A stretch of DNA of 36,585 nucleotides from a virus. Position 1 is the first letter of the stretch. Every line of letters begins with the position of its first letter. Position numbers and translations under genes: made by a program. The DNA lies in the IMG/VR virus record IMGVR_UViG_3300019776_000022, positions 1 to 36,585 of that record. The stretch is one strand, 5' to 3'. Positions 7,991-33,982 of this stretch are shown here, piece by piece. The notes under the pieces are model-generated. The model worked only from the letters and a program-made list of their open reading frames with translations. It ran no database searches and had not been told where the DNA came from.

Positions 7991-8472
7991 TATTTATGCC
8001 TCGCAAAAGAACCATGATATTTATCTCTAGCTTCAATGGCTACAAGCTGTGCAAGCTCTAAATCATCAAATCTATCTCTATACATAGTTTGTTTATTTTT
8101 AGTGATAACTACAGTCCATTTGTTTCTGCCTGAATCCCAGCTAACACCTTTTACACCACTTTTGCTAGTTTTTCTTAATCCAGTATTACAAATTTGCTCT
8201 GACCTTGTTGCTGGTCTTAAATTTTCAATATTGTTGTTTAAAGGATTTCCGTCAATATGGTCTACTTCATTAGGCATATAACCATGAAACATAAGAAATA
8301 CAAGACGATGTGTTTTGTAATGTCTTTTGCAGATGGTAATTTGCCTACGGTCACCGTCAAATGTACCAGCTTCTGTGCCAATTAAATCATTTCGTTTATA
8401 TGGCATTACTTTCCAATACAGATGACCGTTTTTGTAGTCAAAATGCTTTATAAGAAATTTTTGTGTAATCAT
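7990..8472 (-). CDS. HNH endonuclease with AP2-type DNA-binding domain (homing type)
   Basis: This 160-residue nuclease has an HNH core with HR at residues 55-56, then EVDHIDGNPLNNNIENLRPA from residue 69, which holds the catalytic His and the metal-binding Asn. A C-terminal AP2/NUMOD-like segment follows (SKSGVKGVSWDSGRNKW, then DKYHGSFA). This architecture is that of free-standing homing endonucleases. It is inserted with one-base overlaps between the portal gene (8472) and the large fibre gene (7990), breaking an otherwise structural run. Two further genes of the same design occur at 16665 and 21417. Some HNH proteins assist terminase, but the AP2 tail favours homing. Confidence 0.88.
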   Translation of the reverse strand: MITQKFLIKHFDYKNGHLYWKVMPYKRNDLIGTEAGTFDGDRRQITICKRHYKTHRLVFLMFHGYMPNEVDHIDGNPLNNNIENLRPATRSEQICNTGLRKTSKSGVKGVSWDSGRNKWTVVITKNKQTMYRDRFDDLELAQLVAIEARDKYHGSFARHK

Positions 8473-10742
8473 TACTGTACGCCAATTATCTTTCCGTCAG
8501 CGCCTCGAACTACTGTCTTAGGGCGGTTATGTTGAGCGTTAATTGTATCAACTAAAGCGCTAATTGCTTGTGCCATTTGAGCGTTTCCTTGACCAATAGC
8601 GTTAGCAATCGGTTGCATTGGATGTTCCATAGCATGAGCCAAAGATTCTTCAGTCATATACGCTTGTGCGCCATCAGATTCGTCAGCGCCAATGCGAGCA
8701 ACCTCAATCTTTGCGCCATTGTTGATGTGAGCCAATAGAACTTGGGTATTGCGCTCAGTCATAGACTTCATTTGCGCTACTTTCATCTCCATCTCTCTAT
8801 CCATCATATTGCGCTGCTCTTCAAGCTGGAATTTGAGTTGATTTTCTTGCGCTTGGTACTCTTGTTTAGCCTTTTCAAGCTGCATTTGGTTTTGCATCTT
8901 AGCTTGCTCAAGTTGAGCCTGCATTTGCATCTTTTGCATCTCAATTTGTGACTGCATTTGCATCTTTTGCATCTCTGGAGTAGGTGGTTTAGGCTGACCT
9001 TCAGCTTGTTTAGCCATTTGACGGAATTTATCAGCAGTTTCGTCAATAATGCCTTCAAGTTGCTTGCCAGCTTTGAACGCAGTAACGCCAAATTTCAACA
9101 TTTCGATGAGCATTGGGGTTAATTCTGGGTTTGCAGTAGAAGCAGGAATTGCTTGAGTCATAAATCCACCAACAGCTTGCAAGAATGCCATTCTATCGGC
9201 TTTTTCTTGCTGCTCATCTTGGTAAATCATTGAGTCAGAAGTGACTTCAATGCGGAAATTCTTAGCTGCTTCGTTACGCAACAGGGCAATAGCTTGTGGA
9301 ATCAACGCTTGGTCTTGCGGTGATAGCTGCATTGCACCAGAAATCTGGATTAGCGTGTCATCTGTAAAATGATTGCAGATAATCTGGGCTTTAATAGACA
9401 ACAAGCTAGTAGCAAAGTCCACTACTGCGTGTTGCATAGTCTTTAAACGACCAGAAGCGTTGTTACTCTTAATGATTTGTGCGCCAAGAGTTTCATTAGG
9501 GTCGGTTTGACCACGCTGAATGTCGGCAATACCCATCAATTCGTAGATTTGACCCTTAACTTGCTCCATTGCTTGGTAGCACTGGGCTAAAGCGGCAGCA
9601 AATGGGGCAATATCAACCAGGTCAATAGCACCTTTCATGCCTTGCTTTTCAGCAAAAGCCATCCAGTTATGTACTGGAATTAAGGTATTGTTTTCGCCTT
9701 CAGAAAATAAACGCTGCAATTCGCTGTTTGATGCGTCATAAACACCACGCACCTTCAATGCGTTAATTAAGCCATCAATTCTGTCACACAGAACATCTAA
9801 TTCTCTTGCTTGGTCTTGGTAGATAACAAAGTCAGGAATCGGCTCAAGGCTGTCAGTTGTGAGTGTGCTATAGAGAGGCTTAGGGCAAGGCCAGAAGTTC
9901 TCAAGACCCAAAGGGTCATCTCGTTCATCCAGTATCTTTCCGAGGGACTTAGAAATCCACAATACTTTGCCTGTTTCTTTGTCCCAGATTTCATAGATTA
10001 ATGCCTCATATACACCGTCATCAGATTTATAAGATTGCTTTAAATCGTCAGGCTTGGTATCAAGAGGTATCTTGTAGCCTAATTCTTCGCCAAAACGCTC
10101 TACCAATGCTGGGCGGCTCATGTAAACCTTGCGCCATACAGCAGTTACTTCTTCCCATGTGCGAGCAATGGTGTGACCAAAGTCTTTCCAATGCACATAG
10201 TCTACAGGGGCGCACTCATACTCAATGCGTTCCTGATTCTCGTTTTCCATGCCGCCTTCAGTTTCAGCTTCGTCAGCATCTTCTGTAACGCTAAAGCCAT
10301 CTTCTGGAGCGCCATCGGCTTCATCAGCAGCTTCACCTACAATATGTGGCTCATAACGAACCCAAGAAACGCCACGACCACCCAATAGACGGTCTAGCAC
10401 TGCGTTATTCATTGCGGACTTGTAATCGCCATAATGCTCTAATTCGAACTCTAAGGCTCGCTCAAGCATCATTGAGGCTACACGCCCTATGGGGTCATTG
10501 TCCCTAAACCTACGGCTAACATCAGGTCTAGGCAATCTTGCAAAGATAGCTGGCTGAATAGTCTGTACATTGCTCCAGAGGATGTTGAAGCGTGCATTAG
10601 GGTTTCTGTCGTAGCGGCTATCATCTTTATATTTCTTTACAATGCGGTCTGCCCTGGCTTCCCAACGCTTATATGAGCGCTCATAGCCCATAATCGTTTT
10701 ATAAAGCGACTCGTATGAATGACTGTTTTCTTCTTTTTGCAT
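8472..10742 (-). CDS. Portal protein (P22-like)
   Basis: The chosen ATG (10742-10740) has GGGAGAATTTG before it and overlaps the terminase stop as ATGA, giving 756 residues; a reading from 10781 would run back into the terminase gene. The N-terminal half has the portal pattern: YERSYKRWEARADRIVKKY, then RFNILWSNVQTIQPAIFARL and a long clip/wing region. The C-terminal quarter is an extended helix of Gln/Met repeats (QMQSQIEMQKMQMQAQLEQ and similar), as in the barrel of long portals. It forms the dodecameric ring through which DNA is packaged and to which the gp4-like adaptor binds. It lies directly after the large terminase. Confidence 0.9.
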   Translation of the reverse strand: MQKEENSHSYESLYKTIMGYERSYKRWEARADRIVKKYKDDSRYDRNPNARFNILWSNVQTIQPAIFARLPRPDVSRRFRDNDPIGRVASMMLERALEFELEHYGDYKSAMNNAVLDRLLGGRGVSWVRYEPHIVGEAADEADGAPEDGFSVTEDADEAETEGGMENENQERIEYECAPVDYVHWKDFGHTIARTWEEVTAVWRKVYMSRPALVERFGEELGYKIPLDTKPDDLKQSYKSDDGVYEALIYEIWDKETGKVLWISKSLGKILDERDDPLGLENFWPCPKPLYSTLTTDSLEPIPDFVIYQDQARELDVLCDRIDGLINALKVRGVYDASNSELQRLFSEGENNTLIPVHNWMAFAEKQGMKGAIDLVDIAPFAAALAQCYQAMEQVKGQIYELMGIADIQRGQTDPNETLGAQIIKSNNASGRLKTMQHAVVDFATSLLSIKAQIICNHFTDDTLIQISGAMQLSPQDQALIPQAIALLRNEAAKNFRIEVTSDSMIYQDEQQEKADRMAFLQAVGGFMTQAIPASTANPELTPMLIEMLKFGVTAFKAGKQLEGIIDETADKFRQMAKQAEGQPKPPTPEMQKMQMQSQIEMQKMQMQAQLEQAKMQNQMQLEKAKQEYQAQENQLKFQLEEQRNMMDREMEMKVAQMKSMTERNTQVLLAHINNGAKIEVARIGADESDGAQAYMTEESLAHAMEHPMQPIANAIGQGNAQMAQAISALVDTINAQHNRPKTVVRGADGKIIGVQ

Positions 10743-12088
10743 CAAATTCTCCCTGTTGAAGGCTTGGGTGTATGTTTCCACAAGTCATTCAACGACACAT
10801 CGGTTTGCCCTACAAACACCCCTCTAATCGAGTCATCTTTCGAGGGCAACTTAGCTTCTTCTTTCCAAGCAATAGCTAACATCCTAAATGCGTCAGCACC
10901 ATGAGAAGTCCAATCATGTCTAGGTTTATCCCTAAACACCTTCTTGTCCTCATCGTATTCACGCTGATATTGCCGTAAACATTCAATGCCATCTTCGCAC
11001 TTATGGTCAAACCAAGACCGCATTAACGCTAGCCTTGTTGCTTGAATTCCATCTTGAAGTGACAAACTTGGCACAATTTTCAGATATTTTAACGGAATTT
11101 TGTCAGAAAGTTGCTCAATTATGGACTTATTTGATGCAAGTGTCTTTGCTCGAGCATCGTGAGGCAAATAATGAGTGCCATAGTTATAGCCTCTTTCCCT
11201 CTCTCTAGTCTGAATAATTCCTGCATAAAACGCTACTGGCTGACCATTGGATGAATGGTAGTCAAGCATACGAATCTCGCCATGCACCACTTGAAACCAC
11301 CAAATAGCGGTGTCATCTGAATAACCCAAGTCCCATGCTGTATGCACAGGAAACATAGGGTCATATTCAACTGTAGTCACACGCCCAGCATCGGTAAGCT
11401 GACGCATCTCTTTACCGTAGTAAGCGCCAAGGATTGCAGATTCAAAGTCACACTCAAACTCTTGCAGGTATTGGTCTTGAGTCATTGACCTTGCAGCATC
11501 TTCTAATTCTTCTTTGGCGAGCAGCCCAGTTTGGCTAGCCCTTAGGGTTTTGGCATACCAAGTCTTTGACTTAACGGCATTGTTATAGATGTCCCAGAAG
11601 GCGTTGTGGCCTTTAGGTGTTCCAATGAAAACGGCCCAACCGAGTCTATCTGCCAACAAAGGCCGAATAATCTCGCCCCAAATACGAGGGCGCATATCTG
11701 CGTACTCATCTAGGACAATCCCATCAAGGTATAAACCTCGTAAAGAGTCAGCATTATCAGCACCAAACAACCTAATCCTTGCGCCATTTATTAGTTCCAC
11801 CCATAGTTCTGATTGATTAGCTTTAGCCATTACAGGCTTACTAAAGCGTAACAGGTAGTCCCAAGCGATATTCTTGGCTTGGCTGTAGTATGGTGCAACA
11901 TAAGCGTAACGACCATCTTCTTTGCCCTCTATTAGGGCTTTATAGATTAATTCGTTAATGCAGCTAACTGTCTTGCCACATCTACGGTGAGCAACAATAA
12001 CAGCCCAGCGTTGCTTTCTTTCGTGGAAATCTAGGAATACATCACGAGGTTGGTAGTCTAGCTCTACCTCTTGGACTATTTCTTCCAA
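10742..12088 (-). CDS. terL: Terminase large subunit
   Basis: This 448-residue packaging motor has an ATPase domain with Walker A AHRRCGKT (residues 33-40), Walker B GIVLDEYA (123-130, catalytic Glu128) and the coupling motif IGTPKG (155-160). The nuclease domain begins with DLGYSDDTAIWW (Asp253 the first metal ligand) and ends with HGADAFRMLA near residue 425. It translocates DNA into the procapsid and cuts it. It overlaps the small subunit by 13 bases upstream and the portal start by four bases downstream, the standard packaging order. The length is normal and all key residues are present. Confidence 0.96.
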   Translation of the reverse strand: MEEIVQEVELDYQPRDVFLDFHERKQRWAVIVAHRRCGKTVSCINELIYKALIEGKEDGRYAYVAPYYSQAKNIAWDYLLRFSKPVMAKANQSELWVELINGARIRLFGADNADSLRGLYLDGIVLDEYADMRPRIWGEIIRPLLADRLGWAVFIGTPKGHNAFWDIYNNAVKSKTWYAKTLRASQTGLLAKEELEDAARSMTQDQYLQEFECDFESAILGAYYGKEMRQLTDAGRVTTVEYDPMFPVHTAWDLGYSDDTAIWWFQVVHGEIRMLDYHSSNGQPVAFYAGIIQTRERERGYNYGTHYLPHDARAKTLASNKSIIEQLSDKIPLKYLKIVPSLSLQDGIQATRLALMRSWFDHKCEDGIECLRQYQREYDEDKKVFRDKPRHDWTSHGADAFRMLAIAWKEEAKLPSKDDSIRGVFVGQTDVSLNDLWKHTPKPSTGRI

Positions 12089-18233: not shown

Positions 18234-18400
18234 CCTTTTTCTCCCCTATTTCCTTTAGCGTATTGGTCTACAAAATCATTAAATAAGTGGTGTATTTTTG
18301 GTGAATCACTTACATATTTTCTAAACCAAGCCAACCCTTTTTTATGCCGTAAGTGGCATAGAAACCTTACACCACACTCATGCCTAGCTTGTTCATACAT
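18218..18400 (-). CDS. 60-residue basic protein, unknown function
   Basis: The protein opens MYEQARHECGVRFLCHLRHK and continues KGLAWFRKYV, with a basic C-terminus ending GEKGCWKK. The MYxxARHECxVRxL opening is a recurrent start of short phage proteins of unknown role. It overlaps the replisome-organiser-like gene upstream by 34 bases and the membrane-protein gene downstream, as part of the same chain. Confidence 0.62.
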   Translation of the reverse strand: MYEQARHECGVRFLCHLRHKKGLAWFRKYVSDSPKIHHLFNDFVDQYAKGNRGEKGCWKK

Positions 18401-18738
18401 TTGCGTTTAAGACTGTCATAAGAATCGTAACCAGTACCCAAGACACCAAGTTCTCTAGCTTTGGCTTCAATGCCTTCATTGCTAAACATCCATCGTTTGT
18501 CAATTTTTTCTTTCTTGGGTTCAATTACTAATTCATCCTCATAGCGCTCACCATTAAGCCAAGTGCTTGCATGGGGTATGTATTCTAATTCGGTTTCTTT
18601 TGCTTTCCAGTATTTGCAATGTGTGTCAATAGCTTTTGCAGCCATAAGCTGTTGCTCTGCGGATAATTTAGCCCAGGCTTTTCTTGCAGCTGCTTTAGCA
18701 ATTTTTCGTGGATATAAAGACCAGAATTCATCAAACAT
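18367..18738 (-). CDS. Replisome-organiser-like protein (C-terminal domain type)
   Basis: This 123-residue protein opens MFDEFWSLYPRKIAKAAARK, continues AWAKLSAEQQ and reaches EYIPHASTWLNGERYEDEL. The FWxxYPRK...KxAWxKL...YIPHxSTWLNxxRWED pattern is the C-terminal domain of phage replication-initiation proteins of the lambda O/DnaT-related kind, which recruits host helicase or primase. The usual N-terminal DNA-binding half is absent, so it is either a short stand-alone loader or works with a partner. The start has GGAGAAAGGA. No phage polymerase is present, so this is the main visible replication gene. Confidence 0.72.
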   Translation of the reverse strand: MFDEFWSLYPRKIAKAAARKAWAKLSAEQQLMAAKAIDTHCKYWKAKETELEYIPHASTWLNGERYEDELVIEPKKEKIDKRWMFSNEGIEAKARELGVLGTGYDSYDSLKRKCMNKLGMSVV

Positions 18739-18747
18739 TCCTTTCTC

Positions 18748-19059
18748 CTACTGCATTACTCTTGGGCTTGGTGGTGTTGGTGGGCTAGGTGGTACTGTGT
18801 AGCCTGTGTTACCAACAACGCTTTGTGTGTAACCATTTGGTGTCGTGATAACGACTTGGTTAGGATAAATTGTAGCAGTTTGAGTTGTGTAACCTTGTGG
18901 GTTTACAAATTGCGCTGTGTTGCCTTGAATTTGTACTGTGCCAACATTGTAGCCACGACTGTCAGTCATTGGATAAGTTTGTGCTTTTGCTGGAACTCCG
19001 TATGCAAACATACCGCCTAACAATGCACCTAATAAACAACTACCGATAAAGTCTTTCAT
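18748..19059 (-). CDS. Exported proline-tailed protein
   Basis: This 103-residue protein starts with a signal peptide, MKDFIGSCLLGALLGGMFAY, followed by GVPAKAQ as the cleavage region. The mature part holds beta repeats of the form GYNVGTVQIQGNT, GYTTQTATIYPNQ and NGYTQSVVGNT, and it ends in a proline-rich tail (PPSPPTPPSPRVMQ). It should be periplasmic. A surface-exclusion or cell-wall-related role is possible but not shown. The start carries the TTAAGGGGAATTAA site and a promoter-like AT-rich stretch just upstream. Confidence 0.7.
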   Translation of the reverse strand: MKDFIGSCLLGALLGGMFAYGVPAKAQTYPMTDSRGYNVGTVQIQGNTAQFVNPQGYTTQTATIYPNQVVITTPNGYTQSVVGNTGYTVPPSPPTPPSPRVMQ

Positions 19060-19370
19060 TTAATTCCCCTTAAATGTTTACTCGTTATTGAGTATTTATA
19101 GTTTGCCCCATAGTCTTTTATCAGTCTATAAGTATTTAACCTTAGTTGTATAAATACCACTCCCAAAAGGTTTAAGCACACCTAGCCTACCTAAATGTGC
19201 CTTCAGAGTTCTCCCAGTAAGGAATCGCCCACCCAACAGTCTTACGAGGCACAGGCACTATCTTCGCCACCTGTATTGCGCTATTTCAGCCTCTTACCCT
19301 TCTGGTAACGCTACAACCTTATGACGCCACGATGTCGTTAGAGCCGCCATCATAAGGGGTACTGATTCTA
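19060..19370. other. 311-bp gene-free stretch with many inverted repeats, candidate structured RNA
   Basis: No convincing gene is present. Next to the exported-protein gene are the ribosome motif and an inverted repeat TACTC-N6-GAGTA (19079-19094). From about 19170 to 19357 the DNA is clearly richer in G and C than its surroundings and holds five consecutive inverted repeats: GCACA/TGTGC (19176-19200), GTAAG/CTTAC (19217-19245), ACAGG/CCTGT (19251-19274), TTACC/GGTAA (19294-19308) and CCTTATGA/TCATAAGG (19317-19357). The spacing fits a folded RNA made from the minus strand as part of the repressor operon leader. A short plus-strand frame opening MCLQSSPSKESPTQQSYEAQ (from about 19196) is judged doubtful. 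Confidence 0.5.
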
Positions 19371-19937
19371 CTACAAGTATTTGCTCATGTGGAATTCCCC
19401 ATGAAAACCAAAGGTTTGCAGGTTAGTTATTTCTCTTTCATAAGAAAACTGCCTTGCTAGCATCTCTGGCGCAAATTTAATGCCATTACTAACCAAGTAA
19501 TCTCGGTTGAGGTGACATATTAGGTCATCTTCGTTTTTGTCGCTGTAAACGAACTGCGGAGTGTTGGTTAATTCCAACAACTTTTTACTGCGTAGCGAAA
19601 AACCACCATTGCCAACCTTTAATCCTTCAGGATGCCAAGGCCATACTGCGCCAATATAGTCATAATCTAAAAATTGAGGCTGCCAAGCGTTTGCGTCAAT
19701 TACCCAGCCATCCCATTGCACAATCAAAACAAAGTCCGTATGGATGTATTTATGCAGTTCTTGAAGAATAAATTTGCTATACGCTTGACGACTGTTAATG
19801 CTCATGTGGTCAATAAACAATTCACCACCAAATTGGATGTGTCGTTTACTGCGTTCTATGGCTTTTTTGGCTTTGTCAGGCTGCACCGAGTCTATGGCGC
19901 AGATGGTTACATTACTCAGAATCATCTTGTTCGCCAA
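19371..19937 (-). CDS. DUF5672-type glycosyltransferase
   Basis: This 188-residue protein shows the DUF5672 pattern: VQWDGWVIDANAWQPQFLDY, DYIGAVWPWHPEGLKVGNGG, FSLRSKKLLE, then EDDLICHLNRDYLVSNGIKF, APEMLARQFSYE and the closing FGFHGEF. The QxDGW, DYIGAxWP, VGNGGFSLRSK and EDxxICR-like blocks are those of this GT-A-like family, which modifies surface or capsular sugars. It lies directly after the repressor, overlapping its end by 26 bases; a start at 19925 would reduce the overlap. Its place next to the repressor suggests expression in the carrier state and a change of host surface (inference). Confidence 0.85.
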   Translation of the reverse strand: MANKMILSNVTICAIDSVQPDKAKKAIERSKRHIQFGGELFIDHMSINSRQAYSKFILQELHKYIHTDFVLIVQWDGWVIDANAWQPQFLDYDYIGAVWPWHPEGLKVGNGGFSLRSKKLLELTNTPQFVYSDKNEDDLICHLNRDYLVSNGIKFAPEMLARQFSYEREITNLQTFGFHGEFHMSKYL

Positions 19938-20181
19938 AAGCGTTGTTTTTTAGCAACTCAGGCCAAAGTAACCAAAAATTTGTAGGAAACAAGTCTTTAC
20001 GACTAACAAGACCATTGCTTTCTTTTTCAATTCTTGCGCCCAATAACATATATTTGTCGGCTGGAATTCCACGAACACGCCATTGCGACACCGCTGCTGG
20101 AGCTACATCGCACATTTTGGCAACTTTTCCAGTGCCGCCTAAAAGGTCAATGATTGCTGTATCTGTTAGTTTTAATTTCAT
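19912..20181 (-). CDS. Cro/CI-type helix-turn-helix repressor
   Basis: This 89-residue protein has a helix-turn-helix in residues 17-42 (GTGKVAKMCDVAPAAVSQWR, then VRGIPADKYMLLGARIEK), as in YdaS/Cro-like phage regulators. Its C-terminus has the recurrent FPTNFWLLWPEL segment. It lacks a LexA-like cleavage domain. It faces the early operon across a 125-bp region with two palindromes and is probably the repressor of the early promoter. The start has no ribosome site and sits about ten bases from a -10-like TAATAT, so its messenger may be leaderless. No integrase accompanies it. Confidence 0.82.
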   Translation of the reverse strand: MKLKLTDTAIIDLLGGTGKVAKMCDVAPAAVSQWRVRGIPADKYMLLGARIEKESNGLVSRKDLFPTNFWLLWPELLKNNAFGEQDDSE

Positions 20182-20955: not shown

Positions 20956-21213
20956 ATGGCTTATACACCAAAAGAAGGTAGTGGCTCGTTATTTAAAAAT
21001 GACCGCAAAACAACGGAAACTCATCCTGACTATACAGGCTCAATTATGGTTAATGGAAAAGAGCATTGGTTTAGCGCTTGGGTTAAAGAAGGCAAAAAAG
21101 GCAAGTTTTTTAGCGTTTCTATTGGCAAAGAAAAGCAACCAGTAGGCTTTACACCTCGTGGCGCAGATGAATTGCCACGCAACACGATTGAAGATGACGC
21201 AGTTCCATTTTAA
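20956..21213 (+). CDS. SSB-like protein with acidic C-terminal tip
   Basis: This 85-residue protein opens MAYTPKEGSGSLFKNDRKTT and contains a beta core (YTGSIMVNGKEHWFSAWVKE, then KGKFFSVSIG), resembling DUF736-like small OB-type proteins. It ends EDDAVPF, which matches the DDxIPF tip by which bacterial SSB recruits partners. Together with its place straight after ERF, this supports single-strand DNA binding. The ribosome site is TTAAGGGGAAATGAA. It is small for an SSB and the OB fold is not provable by eye. Confidence 0.7.
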   Translation: MAYTPKEGSGSLFKNDRKTTETHPDYTGSIMVNGKEHWFSAWVKEGKKGKFFSVSIGKEKQPVGFTPRGADELPRNTIEDDAVPF

Positions 21214-31981: not shown

Positions 31982-33982
31982 TTACAGTACGCCTCCTCGT
32001 TCCATTACATAATCAGTTGAAGCCCAATGCAATTCTATATCTCTTGACGCTACATTAATATTAATCGAACCTGTAAATCCTAGCCCAGAAACACCTTGCC
32101 ATATTTTGGTTGTAACTAGACCGCCAGCCCAAATATTGTTATCCCATGTAGCAACATCCCATGATGAGGCTGTAAATAAGCTAGGGTTAAAGGAAACAGC
32201 GCCTAATTGGCTTTGAGTGTCAAAATCCACGCTAATACCGCATACTACTGAAGGAATACCGCCAGCAGACTGCAATATTGGGCGAACCATAGTAAAGCGC
32301 TTTAGCTGACCTGGGCTTTCAAAATAACTATAAGCTTGTTGTGCTGTAGCGGTAATGTTTGCACCATCGTCAGAGGTAGCATCGTAAAAAGTGCCTACAA
32401 ATCCATCTGAACCAAAGTGCATATCTGCATCGCCTGATACTTCCCAGCAATACGCTTGAATACCTGTAAACCTAGCCCATGCTTTAGTAATGGTATGCAT
32501 TACAAACTGTTCCATGCCAGCATTGGTAGGAATAGACAAAATAAGCATATTTTCAGAGGCGTAATAATTAATTTGCCATCCAAAATTAGCGTAGTAAGTA
32601 GTTGCGGCTTGGCTTACAGCGTAGTAAATCTTATCTGTAAGGTTAATTCTAGGGTCTAGGCGGCTAGATTGTAGTGCAGAGGCAAGAGGCACTAAACCGT
32701 CTTGAGTAAGCAATAGAAGGTCGCCAGCCCATTTAAAGAAGCATCTACGACTAAAGGTTTGACCTAATTGCCATACGCCTTTAAGAAGCCATTTGTCAGC
32801 AATATCAGGGTCAGTACCGTTATAAACAATAACCTCGCCCATACTGGTTACAAATACAGCATAGTCGTCAGCGCCTTGACCAGCATCAAGTGTCCATGTA
32901 CCCATTGCTTGTAAATAACCAGCATTACGAGCAATACCACCAAAATAAAGCGGTGAAGCAGGCCCACCAAGAGCATCTACATCAAGATACCAGCAAGTCA
33001 TGCTGTCTTTTTCGGTGAAATATAGACGGTTTTTAAACAAATTCACATTAATAAATTTGCTTGAATCTACGCCTGTAATACCAATAACTGTGTATGAGCC
33101 TACTACAGTAGCGTTAGCCGCTGGAGTGGTTGCCATTGTGTAAGTAAAGGTGCTTGCGCCCGTCTTTGTAATGACATAAGTGCCGTTGTATTCGCTAGAA
33201 CTAGCACCGCTAATAGTAACCCTGTTGCCTGTAATTAAGCCATGTGGTGCTGCGGTAGTTAAAGTAGCTGTTGTGCCAGAACGAGTAATACTGCTAATTG
33301 TTTGTGCAGTATCGGTAGTGGCTATAAAAAACCAGTTATCCCCATCGTAAACCATTGTTGGGTCTTGACCATTACAAGCTACTAAAAAGTGACCTGCTTG
33401 GTTGGTTAAGTTTACAAACTGAAATTTATCGTCAGTAATGCCGCTAAAAACCTCTACTGCTGTTTGGTTTTTTACATCATATATTTTTGTGCCAGCAAAG
33501 CCAAATATGTCATACCCATCAACTGTTGTGTAGTTTGTTACTGTGTTTATAGGGGTTGTTAAGCCTATGGTGTAAGCGCCAACCACAGTAGCGTTTGAAT
33601 TAACAACCGCTAAAAGGTCGTATGTAAAAGTATTTGCTCCAGTTACAGTAATTTCAAAAACACCGTTATAAGCCGATGGGGTAGCGCCAGTTATAGATAC
33701 ATATTGACCAGTTGTAAGACCATGCGCTGAAGCTGTAGTTAAAGTAGCAACCAATCCAGCATAAGTAATGCTAGAAATGGTTTGAACACCTGTTGAGGTG
33801 GTTAATGTAGATATTCTTGTAAAACCCTTACGCAATGTCACATCGGTAGGGGTGGGAAACCAGTTTACAAGCTGAACCGCATCAGTTGGACTCATGTTTG
33901 CAAGGGAATCCCTAGCGTTCCACCCACCAATAGGGGATGGCACAGAAGTAGTTACAGCGCTACGCTTTTGTGCTATTGCCAT
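31982..33982 (-). CDS. Tail-hub / DNA-stabilising protein (P22 gp10-like)
   Basis: This 666-residue protein opens SVPSPIGGWNARDSLANM (residues 13-30) and LVNWFPTPTDVTLRKGF, the start form of the hub/stabiliser proteins of short-tailed phages. A beta module of about 73 residues occurs twice (67-139 and 227-299, 160 residues apart). The remaining body is beta-rich with YFGGIARNAGYLQ and GEVIVYNGTDPD. It would close the portal channel and carry the tail tip. It follows the gp4-like adaptor by two bases. Confidence 0.72.
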   Translation of the reverse strand: MAIAQKRSAVTTSVPSPIGGWNARDSLANMSPTDAVQLVNWFPTPTDVTLRKGFTRISTLTTSTGVQTISSITYAGLVATLTTASAHGLTTGQYVSITGATPSAYNGVFEITVTGANTFTYDLLAVVNSNATVVGAYTIGLTTPINTVTNYTTVDGYDIFGFAGTKIYDVKNQTAVEVFSGITDDKFQFVNLTNQAGHFLVACNGQDPTMVYDGDNWFFIATTDTAQTISSITRSGTTATLTTAAPHGLITGNRVTISGASSSEYNGTYVITKTGASTFTYTMATTPAANATVVGSYTVIGITGVDSSKFINVNLFKNRLYFTEKDSMTCWYLDVDALGGPASPLYFGGIARNAGYLQAMGTWTLDAGQGADDYAVFVTSMGEVIVYNGTDPDIADKWLLKGVWQLGQTFSRRCFFKWAGDLLLLTQDGLVPLASALQSSRLDPRINLTDKIYYAVSQAATTYYANFGWQINYYASENMLILSIPTNAGMEQFVMHTITKAWARFTGIQAYCWEVSGDADMHFGSDGFVGTFYDATSDDGANITATAQQAYSYFESPGQLKRFTMVRPILQSAGGIPSVVCGISVDFDTQSQLGAVSFNPSLFTASSWDVATWDNNIWAGGLVTTKIWQGVSGLGFTGSININVASRDIELHWASTDYVMERGGVL
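33086..33304 (-). repeat. Second copy of the beta module in the gp10-like gene
   Basis: Codes for AQTISSITRSGTTATLTTAA and related strands through NATVVGSYTV. It pairs with 33566-33784 and has most residues in common with it. Confidence 0.8.
33566..33784 (-). repeat. First copy of the beta module in the gp10-like gene
   Basis: Codes for VQTISSITYAGLVATLTTAS through NATVVGAYTI. It is an intragenic duplicate of 33086-33304, with the copies exactly 160 codons apart. Confidence 0.8.

Follow-up and report, generated by a model that had tools for sequence, protein, structure and literature searches.

A stretch of the minus strand of a tailed-phage genome almost certainly carries a noncoding RNA gene, identified from Rfam match and fold together as a full-length member of family RF02932 (Betaproteobacteria-1 RNA). 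The family is already catalogued, with its function unassigned there, so the RNA is not new as a family; RF02932 was not named anywhere in the literature that we searched, and wider prior reports are possible. Our whole explanation, to which we assign a probability of roughly 45%, is that this is an independent RNA gene with its own promoter, expressed early and trans-acting, probably partnered by a host protein. The window (the whole 36,585-nucleotide stretch of DNA analysed) is attributed to a tailed phage on the basis of the following genes.

8472-10781, 10742-12088, and 31982-33982, minus strand: portal, terminase large subunit, and amidase-like lysis/structural genes

Scanning the whole window against Rfam returned a single match, to RF02932 at 19357-19231 on the minus strand, which scores 80 bits against a curated cut-off of 49.4 bits and is not truncated.

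19150-19358, minus strand: extended RF02932 RNA gene, with a core (P1, P2, P3, PKa, PKb, and PKc) and a 3′ tail (P4, P5, R1, and R2), whose ends we infer from the Rfam match and from tail conservation in relatives
19231-19357, minus strand: Rfam-modelled part, RF02932 positions 1-120 of 120

A first-pass annotation, made from the letters alone, had proposed a structured RNA across 19060-19370 and left its strand unfixed. The RNA is confirmed by the Rfam score and by covariation, although it takes up only about 19358-19150 of that interval, and it lies on the minus strand. This strand assignment follows from the Rfam match and from folding of the 311-nt interval, a check that the annotation had suggested: the minus strand exceeds its shuffles in stability (z -2.86, 0 of 100 shuffles as stable), but the plus strand does not (z -0.64). 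Folded alone, the Rfam part has ordinary stability relative to shuffles (z 0.46), which would follow if pseudoknots account for much of its pairing. The stretch is indeed richer in G+C than its surroundings (0.495 at 19200-19399 vs. 0.34-0.445 in adjoining 200-base windows), and, as had been noted, it holds no good gene, with no conserved reading frame or peptide on either strand and any of the six frames open in at most 4 of 46 relatives. That the stretch had not been recognised as tmRNA, RNase P RNA, 6S RNA, or a tRNA is also borne out, since covariance models report RF02932 alone and ARAGORN nothing; the same Rfam run, proposed as a further check, recovered the catalogued family that had been missed.

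All three hairpins of the RF02932 consensus are present and covarying in the window RNA. Comparison with relatives nevertheless shows the Rfam structure, which has these hairpins only and no pseudoknots, to be incomplete: three predicted pseudoknots display strong compensatory change, two of which recur in four relatives that played no part in finding them. In the proposed topology, the P3 loop pairs with two upstream segments (PKa and PKb) and the P1 loop pairs with the P2 loop (PKc).

19317-19357, minus strand: P1 hairpin, 19357-19350 with 19324-19317 (strands CCTTATGA/TCATAAGG); two-sided changes in all seven pairs counted
19278-19311, minus strand: P2, 19311-19307 with 19282-19278; 96.0% of cells paired, two-sided changes in all five pairs
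19236-19261, minus strand: P3, 19261-19257 with 19240-19236; 99.1% of cells paired, top-ranked covarying column pairs
19246-19293, minus strand: PKa pseudoknot, 19293-19289 (GAGGC) with 19250-19246 (GCCUC); 90.7% of cells paired, two-sided changes in 5 of 5 pairs
19251-19274, minus strand: PKb pseudoknot, 19274-19270 (ACAGG) with 19255-19251 (CCUGU); 95.1% of cells paired
19303-19329, minus strand: PKc pseudoknot, 19329-19327 (UGG, P1 loop) with 19305-19303 (CCA, P2 loop); 81.1% of cells paired
19262-19288, minus strand: joining segments UGAAA (19288-19284) and GGUGGCGAAG (19271-19262), mostly upper-case in the Rfam consensus

Across an alignment of 45 diverse relatives (A1), the proposed core structure scored 0.588 for covariation, with 86.9% standard pairs, compared with 0.221 and 67.3% in shuffled controls (0 of 500 reaching the observed score) and at most 0.162 in slid versions, figures to be read with the caveat that the A1 sequences are related to one another. 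The compensatory changes that the first-pass annotation had named as a check are thus present in related phages. A helix-free mutual-information scan of A1, limited to column pairs able to form standard pairs, likewise placed pairs of P3, PKa, PKb, and P2 at the top. The three core pairs of PKc form in 45 of 45 sequences, with two-sided changes in two of the three, and PKc reaches 6 bp in some relatives. Pairing is lowest in P1 (67.9% of cells in A1), likely because the alignment is shifted there between groups.

Some of this conservation was imposed by the search. Since the pattern used to collect relatives fixed UGAAA, GGUGGCGAAG, AG, and GCC, the GG-CC pairs of PKb and two P3 pairs are partly fixed by construction in A1, and the strict invariance of the two joining segments is partly a pattern artefact. 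Four members found with the Rfam model (L184, L188, L189, and L190; L numbers designate loci) provide a fair check because the pattern missed them. All four retain P2, P3, and PKb despite letter changes, at 4-5 of 5 pairs each, and form 5, 3, 4, and 4 of 5 PKa pairs, respectively, while change is also seen among held-out relatives in the otherwise invariant GG-CC pairs of PKb.

Conservation extends 70-80 nt beyond the end of the Rfam model, so that the RNA, judged from its relatives, is nearly twice the model length; neither this tail nor the pseudoknots are in that model. Our parser recognised the tail in 146 of 156 members.

19221-19230, minus strand: strand A (GGGCGAUUCC), pairing with R1 (helix P4) or alternatively with R2
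19211-19222, minus strand: word R1 (CCUUACUGGGAG), in the P4 loop region, identified by R1/R2 comparison
19174-19201, minus strand: P5 hairpin, GGCACAUUUAG-GUAGG-CUAGGUGUGCUU, supported by covariation and predicted fold
19160-19170, minus strand: word R2 (CCUUUUGGGAG), 3′ of P5, a near-repeat of R1

P4 and P5 covary, with a score of 0.369 vs. 0.210 for shuffled and at most 0.114 for slid versions. With the tail included, the five inverted repeats on which the first-pass annotation was built can be sorted: CCTTATGA/TCATAAGG (P1), ACAGG/CCTGT (PKb), and GCACA/TGTGC (part of P5) are conserved, whereas GTAAG/CTTAC and TTACC/GGTAA exist in the window without support from relatives as helices.

The words R1 and R2 vary between phages, yet match each other inside one RNA. 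The longest common R1/R2 word averages 6.7 for own pairs vs. 4.26 when pairs are crossed (none of 10000 permutations reaching the own-pair value); in L154, CCAGGCGGATAAA occurs twice, as R1 and R2, and in L058 GGACAGGA does so. Part of the cause may be a shared pairing partner, the upstream strand A. Pairing energies of A with its own R1 are better than with the words of other phages (0 of 20000 permutations as good), and own A:R2 pairs are better than cross pairs (127 of 20000), although kinship among sequences inflates these and similar tests, and support for A:R2 pairing is modest. The predicted minimum-energy fold of the window tail has A paired with R2. Co-change of the words is not universal, with one word only changed in L007 and L041; between L154 and L155 both words differ and A has no matching change. 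Exchange between A:R1, the local helix P4, and A:R2, a longer-range helix that would enclose R1 and P5, could provide a conformational step, and a true two-state switch of this kind is conceivable, at roughly one chance in three. We regard as a long shot the further idea that R1 and R2 are a variable specificity word shown twice by a conserved pseudoknotted scaffold, that is, an exchangeable recognition word (or word-driven two-state switch) acting via a host protein; we know of no described RNA family with such a design. In L084 and similar loci, a subgroup of lake-phage RNAs, the R word appears a third time (GAGCAGTAA), 3′ of P1.

Relatives were collected with degenerate DNA patterns derived from the core, the first of which matched 53 viral stretches and a looser one at least 119 viral and 29 genome stretches, and the family comparison took in about 150 relatives. 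Most of these are phage contigs, and on this distribution the RNA belongs chiefly to phages. The genuine members among the genome matches fall mainly to Burkholderiales, in whose genomes RF02932 occurs, and to Thauera. They are sparse: 4 of 399 genomes in the order of a Paraburkholderia genome had a match above the cut-off, and a broader set of 369 genomes from that Paraburkholderia's class yielded the centre genome alone. Each of 14 phage records tested held exactly one core-pattern match. A nucleotide search with the window RNA found no near relatives among annotated phages and plasmids; GC-rich relatives led instead to an isolate, Acidovorax phage AP1, in which the RNA occupies an unannotated gap after the primase gene (OM049504, 11874-12045). 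Some contigs begin or end inside the RNA (L016/L008 and L022/L028; IMG/VR 3300032241_000056 and _000348), as if a conserved RNA common to co-occurring phages had broken the assemblies. Core and tail types appear shuffled between phages, and the chromosomal copies L065, L083, and L076/L077 (Caballeronia) have a different tail, with an H-NS-like gene upstream of the RNA in L065 and L083.

On the minus strand of the window, the gene order runs from a Cro-like gene through a DUF5672 gene, the RNA, and a small exported protein to a replication initiation protein.

19912-20181, minus strand: Cro/repressor-like HTH protein, upstream on the same strand (phrog_35, P22_Cro, YdaS)
19371-19937, minus strand: DUF5672 protein, variable cargo between Cro and the RNA (PF18922, E 4e-20); the "glycosyltransferase" of the first-pass annotation
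18748-19059, minus strand: small putative exported protein, downstream, with no family match
18367-18738, minus strand: replication initiation/primosomal-like protein, downstream (phrog_270, E 1.4e-19)
19365-19393, minus strand: sigma70-type promoter-like site, TCCACA-17-TAGAAT, ending 7 nt before P1; transcription start expected near 19358

Of 157 loci, 82 have the Cro-like family upstream and 86 have the replication protein downstream; in a second group, a helicase and a Toprim primase sit directly upstream of the RNA. The cargo genes between these neighbours and the RNA vary, and flanking genes differ among relatives. A single sigma70-type site is uninformative by itself, as the scan yields as many in shuffles. 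The placement of the hexamer, however, is conserved in AT-rich (lake-phage) relatives, where TAnnnT falls 3-7 nt before P1 in 31 of 44 distinct upstream regions, compared with one or two at most other upstream positions, and this suggests a promoter. Relatives with GC-rich sequences lack a promoter-like site at the corresponding place, which counts against our reading of an RNA with its own promoter. The earlier suggestion of expression in the carrier state, based on the upstream repressor, is not supported: the HTH protein matches P22 Cro and YdaS besides a generic phage repressor family, and a promoter-like site of its own precedes the RNA.

The strongest rival, which we rate as unlikely though well ahead of the other alternatives, is a cis-acting leader of the early/replication operon, the form in which the regulatory leader of the first-pass annotation survives. 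The nascent RNA would bind RNA polymerase or a host factor and confer termination resistance downstream, with the R1/R2 exchange as a timing step; it would work in the manner of HK022 put or lambda nutR while being neither of them. HK022 put and lambda nut are antitermination sites near the start of early-operon transcripts, and the window RNA resembles them in layout, as in lake phages it has Cro on one side and replication genes on the other, begins right at its promoter-like site, and is co-directional with the genes downstream. In most relatives the RNA and its closest neighbours share a strand (133 of 141 upstream, 114 of 123 downstream), and intrinsic terminators are not enriched 3′ of the RNA (5 of 91 vs. 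39 of 282 in the control), with none typical at its 3′ end. Unlike put, at about 200 nt and with three pseudoknots, the RNA is far larger and also occurs outside phage operons. A put-like element would always lie upstream of the operon it serves and on the same strand, yet co-directionality is 93%, the downstream genes are not fixed, and in GC-rich phages the RNA sits 3′ of helicase and primase. The chromosomal copies adjoin H-NS, HipBA, UmuC-like, or DUF2934 genes, some with no such operon and several with no co-directional gene downstream, and in L073 the RNA lies between opposite-strand genes; the fold is kept nonetheless.

These copies outside any operon, some between opposite-strand genes, favour an independent trans-acting gene, and we place trans action itself a little short of even odds. 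Under this preferred reading, the RNA would be transcribed early from its own sigma70-type promoter, together with the Cro/replication block; its 3′ end would arise by processing, or else the transcript would read through, as no terminator lies downstream; and the product would be a folded RNA, not a peptide, acting in trans and most likely bound to a host protein. A host partner is favoured because the nine carrier phages compared have no protein family in common (blastp 1e-4), the widest occurring in six, and a universal phage-encoded partner is accordingly unlikely from these comparisons. Of the other eight RNA-bearing phages compared, four have relatives of a small protein that the window encodes at 20956-21213 on the plus strand. 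Mimicry of 16S rRNA was also considered: UGAAA and GGUGGCGAAG (19288-19262, minus strand) can be found, in that order, within the 16S platform of E. coli, our reference, from position 692 onwards. We rejected it, since alignment scores were mostly not clearly above shuffles, and judge the likeness coincidental because divergent members (L188, L189, and L190) lack the exact motif.

A replication-origin RNA, acting as primer or R-loop transcript to aid the start of phage DNA synthesis, is improbable: both main groups place the RNA near replication genes, with an initiator downstream or helicase and primase upstream, but copies exist outside any replication block. Still less probable is an antisense immunity RNA whose R words would be complementary to repeated target sites. 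P4 CI and P1 C4 are small phage immunity RNAs, and the window RNA shares with P4 CI and P1/P7 C4 a small size, paired repeats, and, in lake phages, an immunity-region location. Its fold is far more elaborate, however, its repeats lie within the RNA itself and not in a separate target, and the search for antisense sites to the R words (the L084 word being too short to include) gave 7-8 nt matches that were scattered over the loci examined without a consistent position, with no complementary leader-transcript target nearby. Chance inverted repeats or a missed small protein can be set aside, as five-base repeats are common on their own but the Rfam score and the absence of a conserved frame contradict this explanation and the covariation refutes it.

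Among other structured RNAs, GOLLD and ROOL are several times longer than the window RNA. They are described as large noncoding bacterial RNAs with elaborate folds and unassigned roles (PMC12286853), features that the window RNA shares. Their sequences are unrelated to it, and neither has an Rfam match in the window.

These results would give an orphan Rfam family a phage home, probably mainly in Burkholderiales phages, judged by genome matches. Beyond its catalogue entry, RF02932 gains pseudoknots, a tail, paired words, and phage context, and with them a full extent, a promoter-like site in one large group, and a three-pseudoknot fold open to testing. Folding this dense and conserved is typically seen in RNAs with a protein or ligand partner or with catalytic activity. 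Because a phage isolate, Acidovorax phage AP1, carries the RNA as a single-copy gene, deletion and pull-down should be straightforward, and the matched R1/R2 words raise a precise new question.
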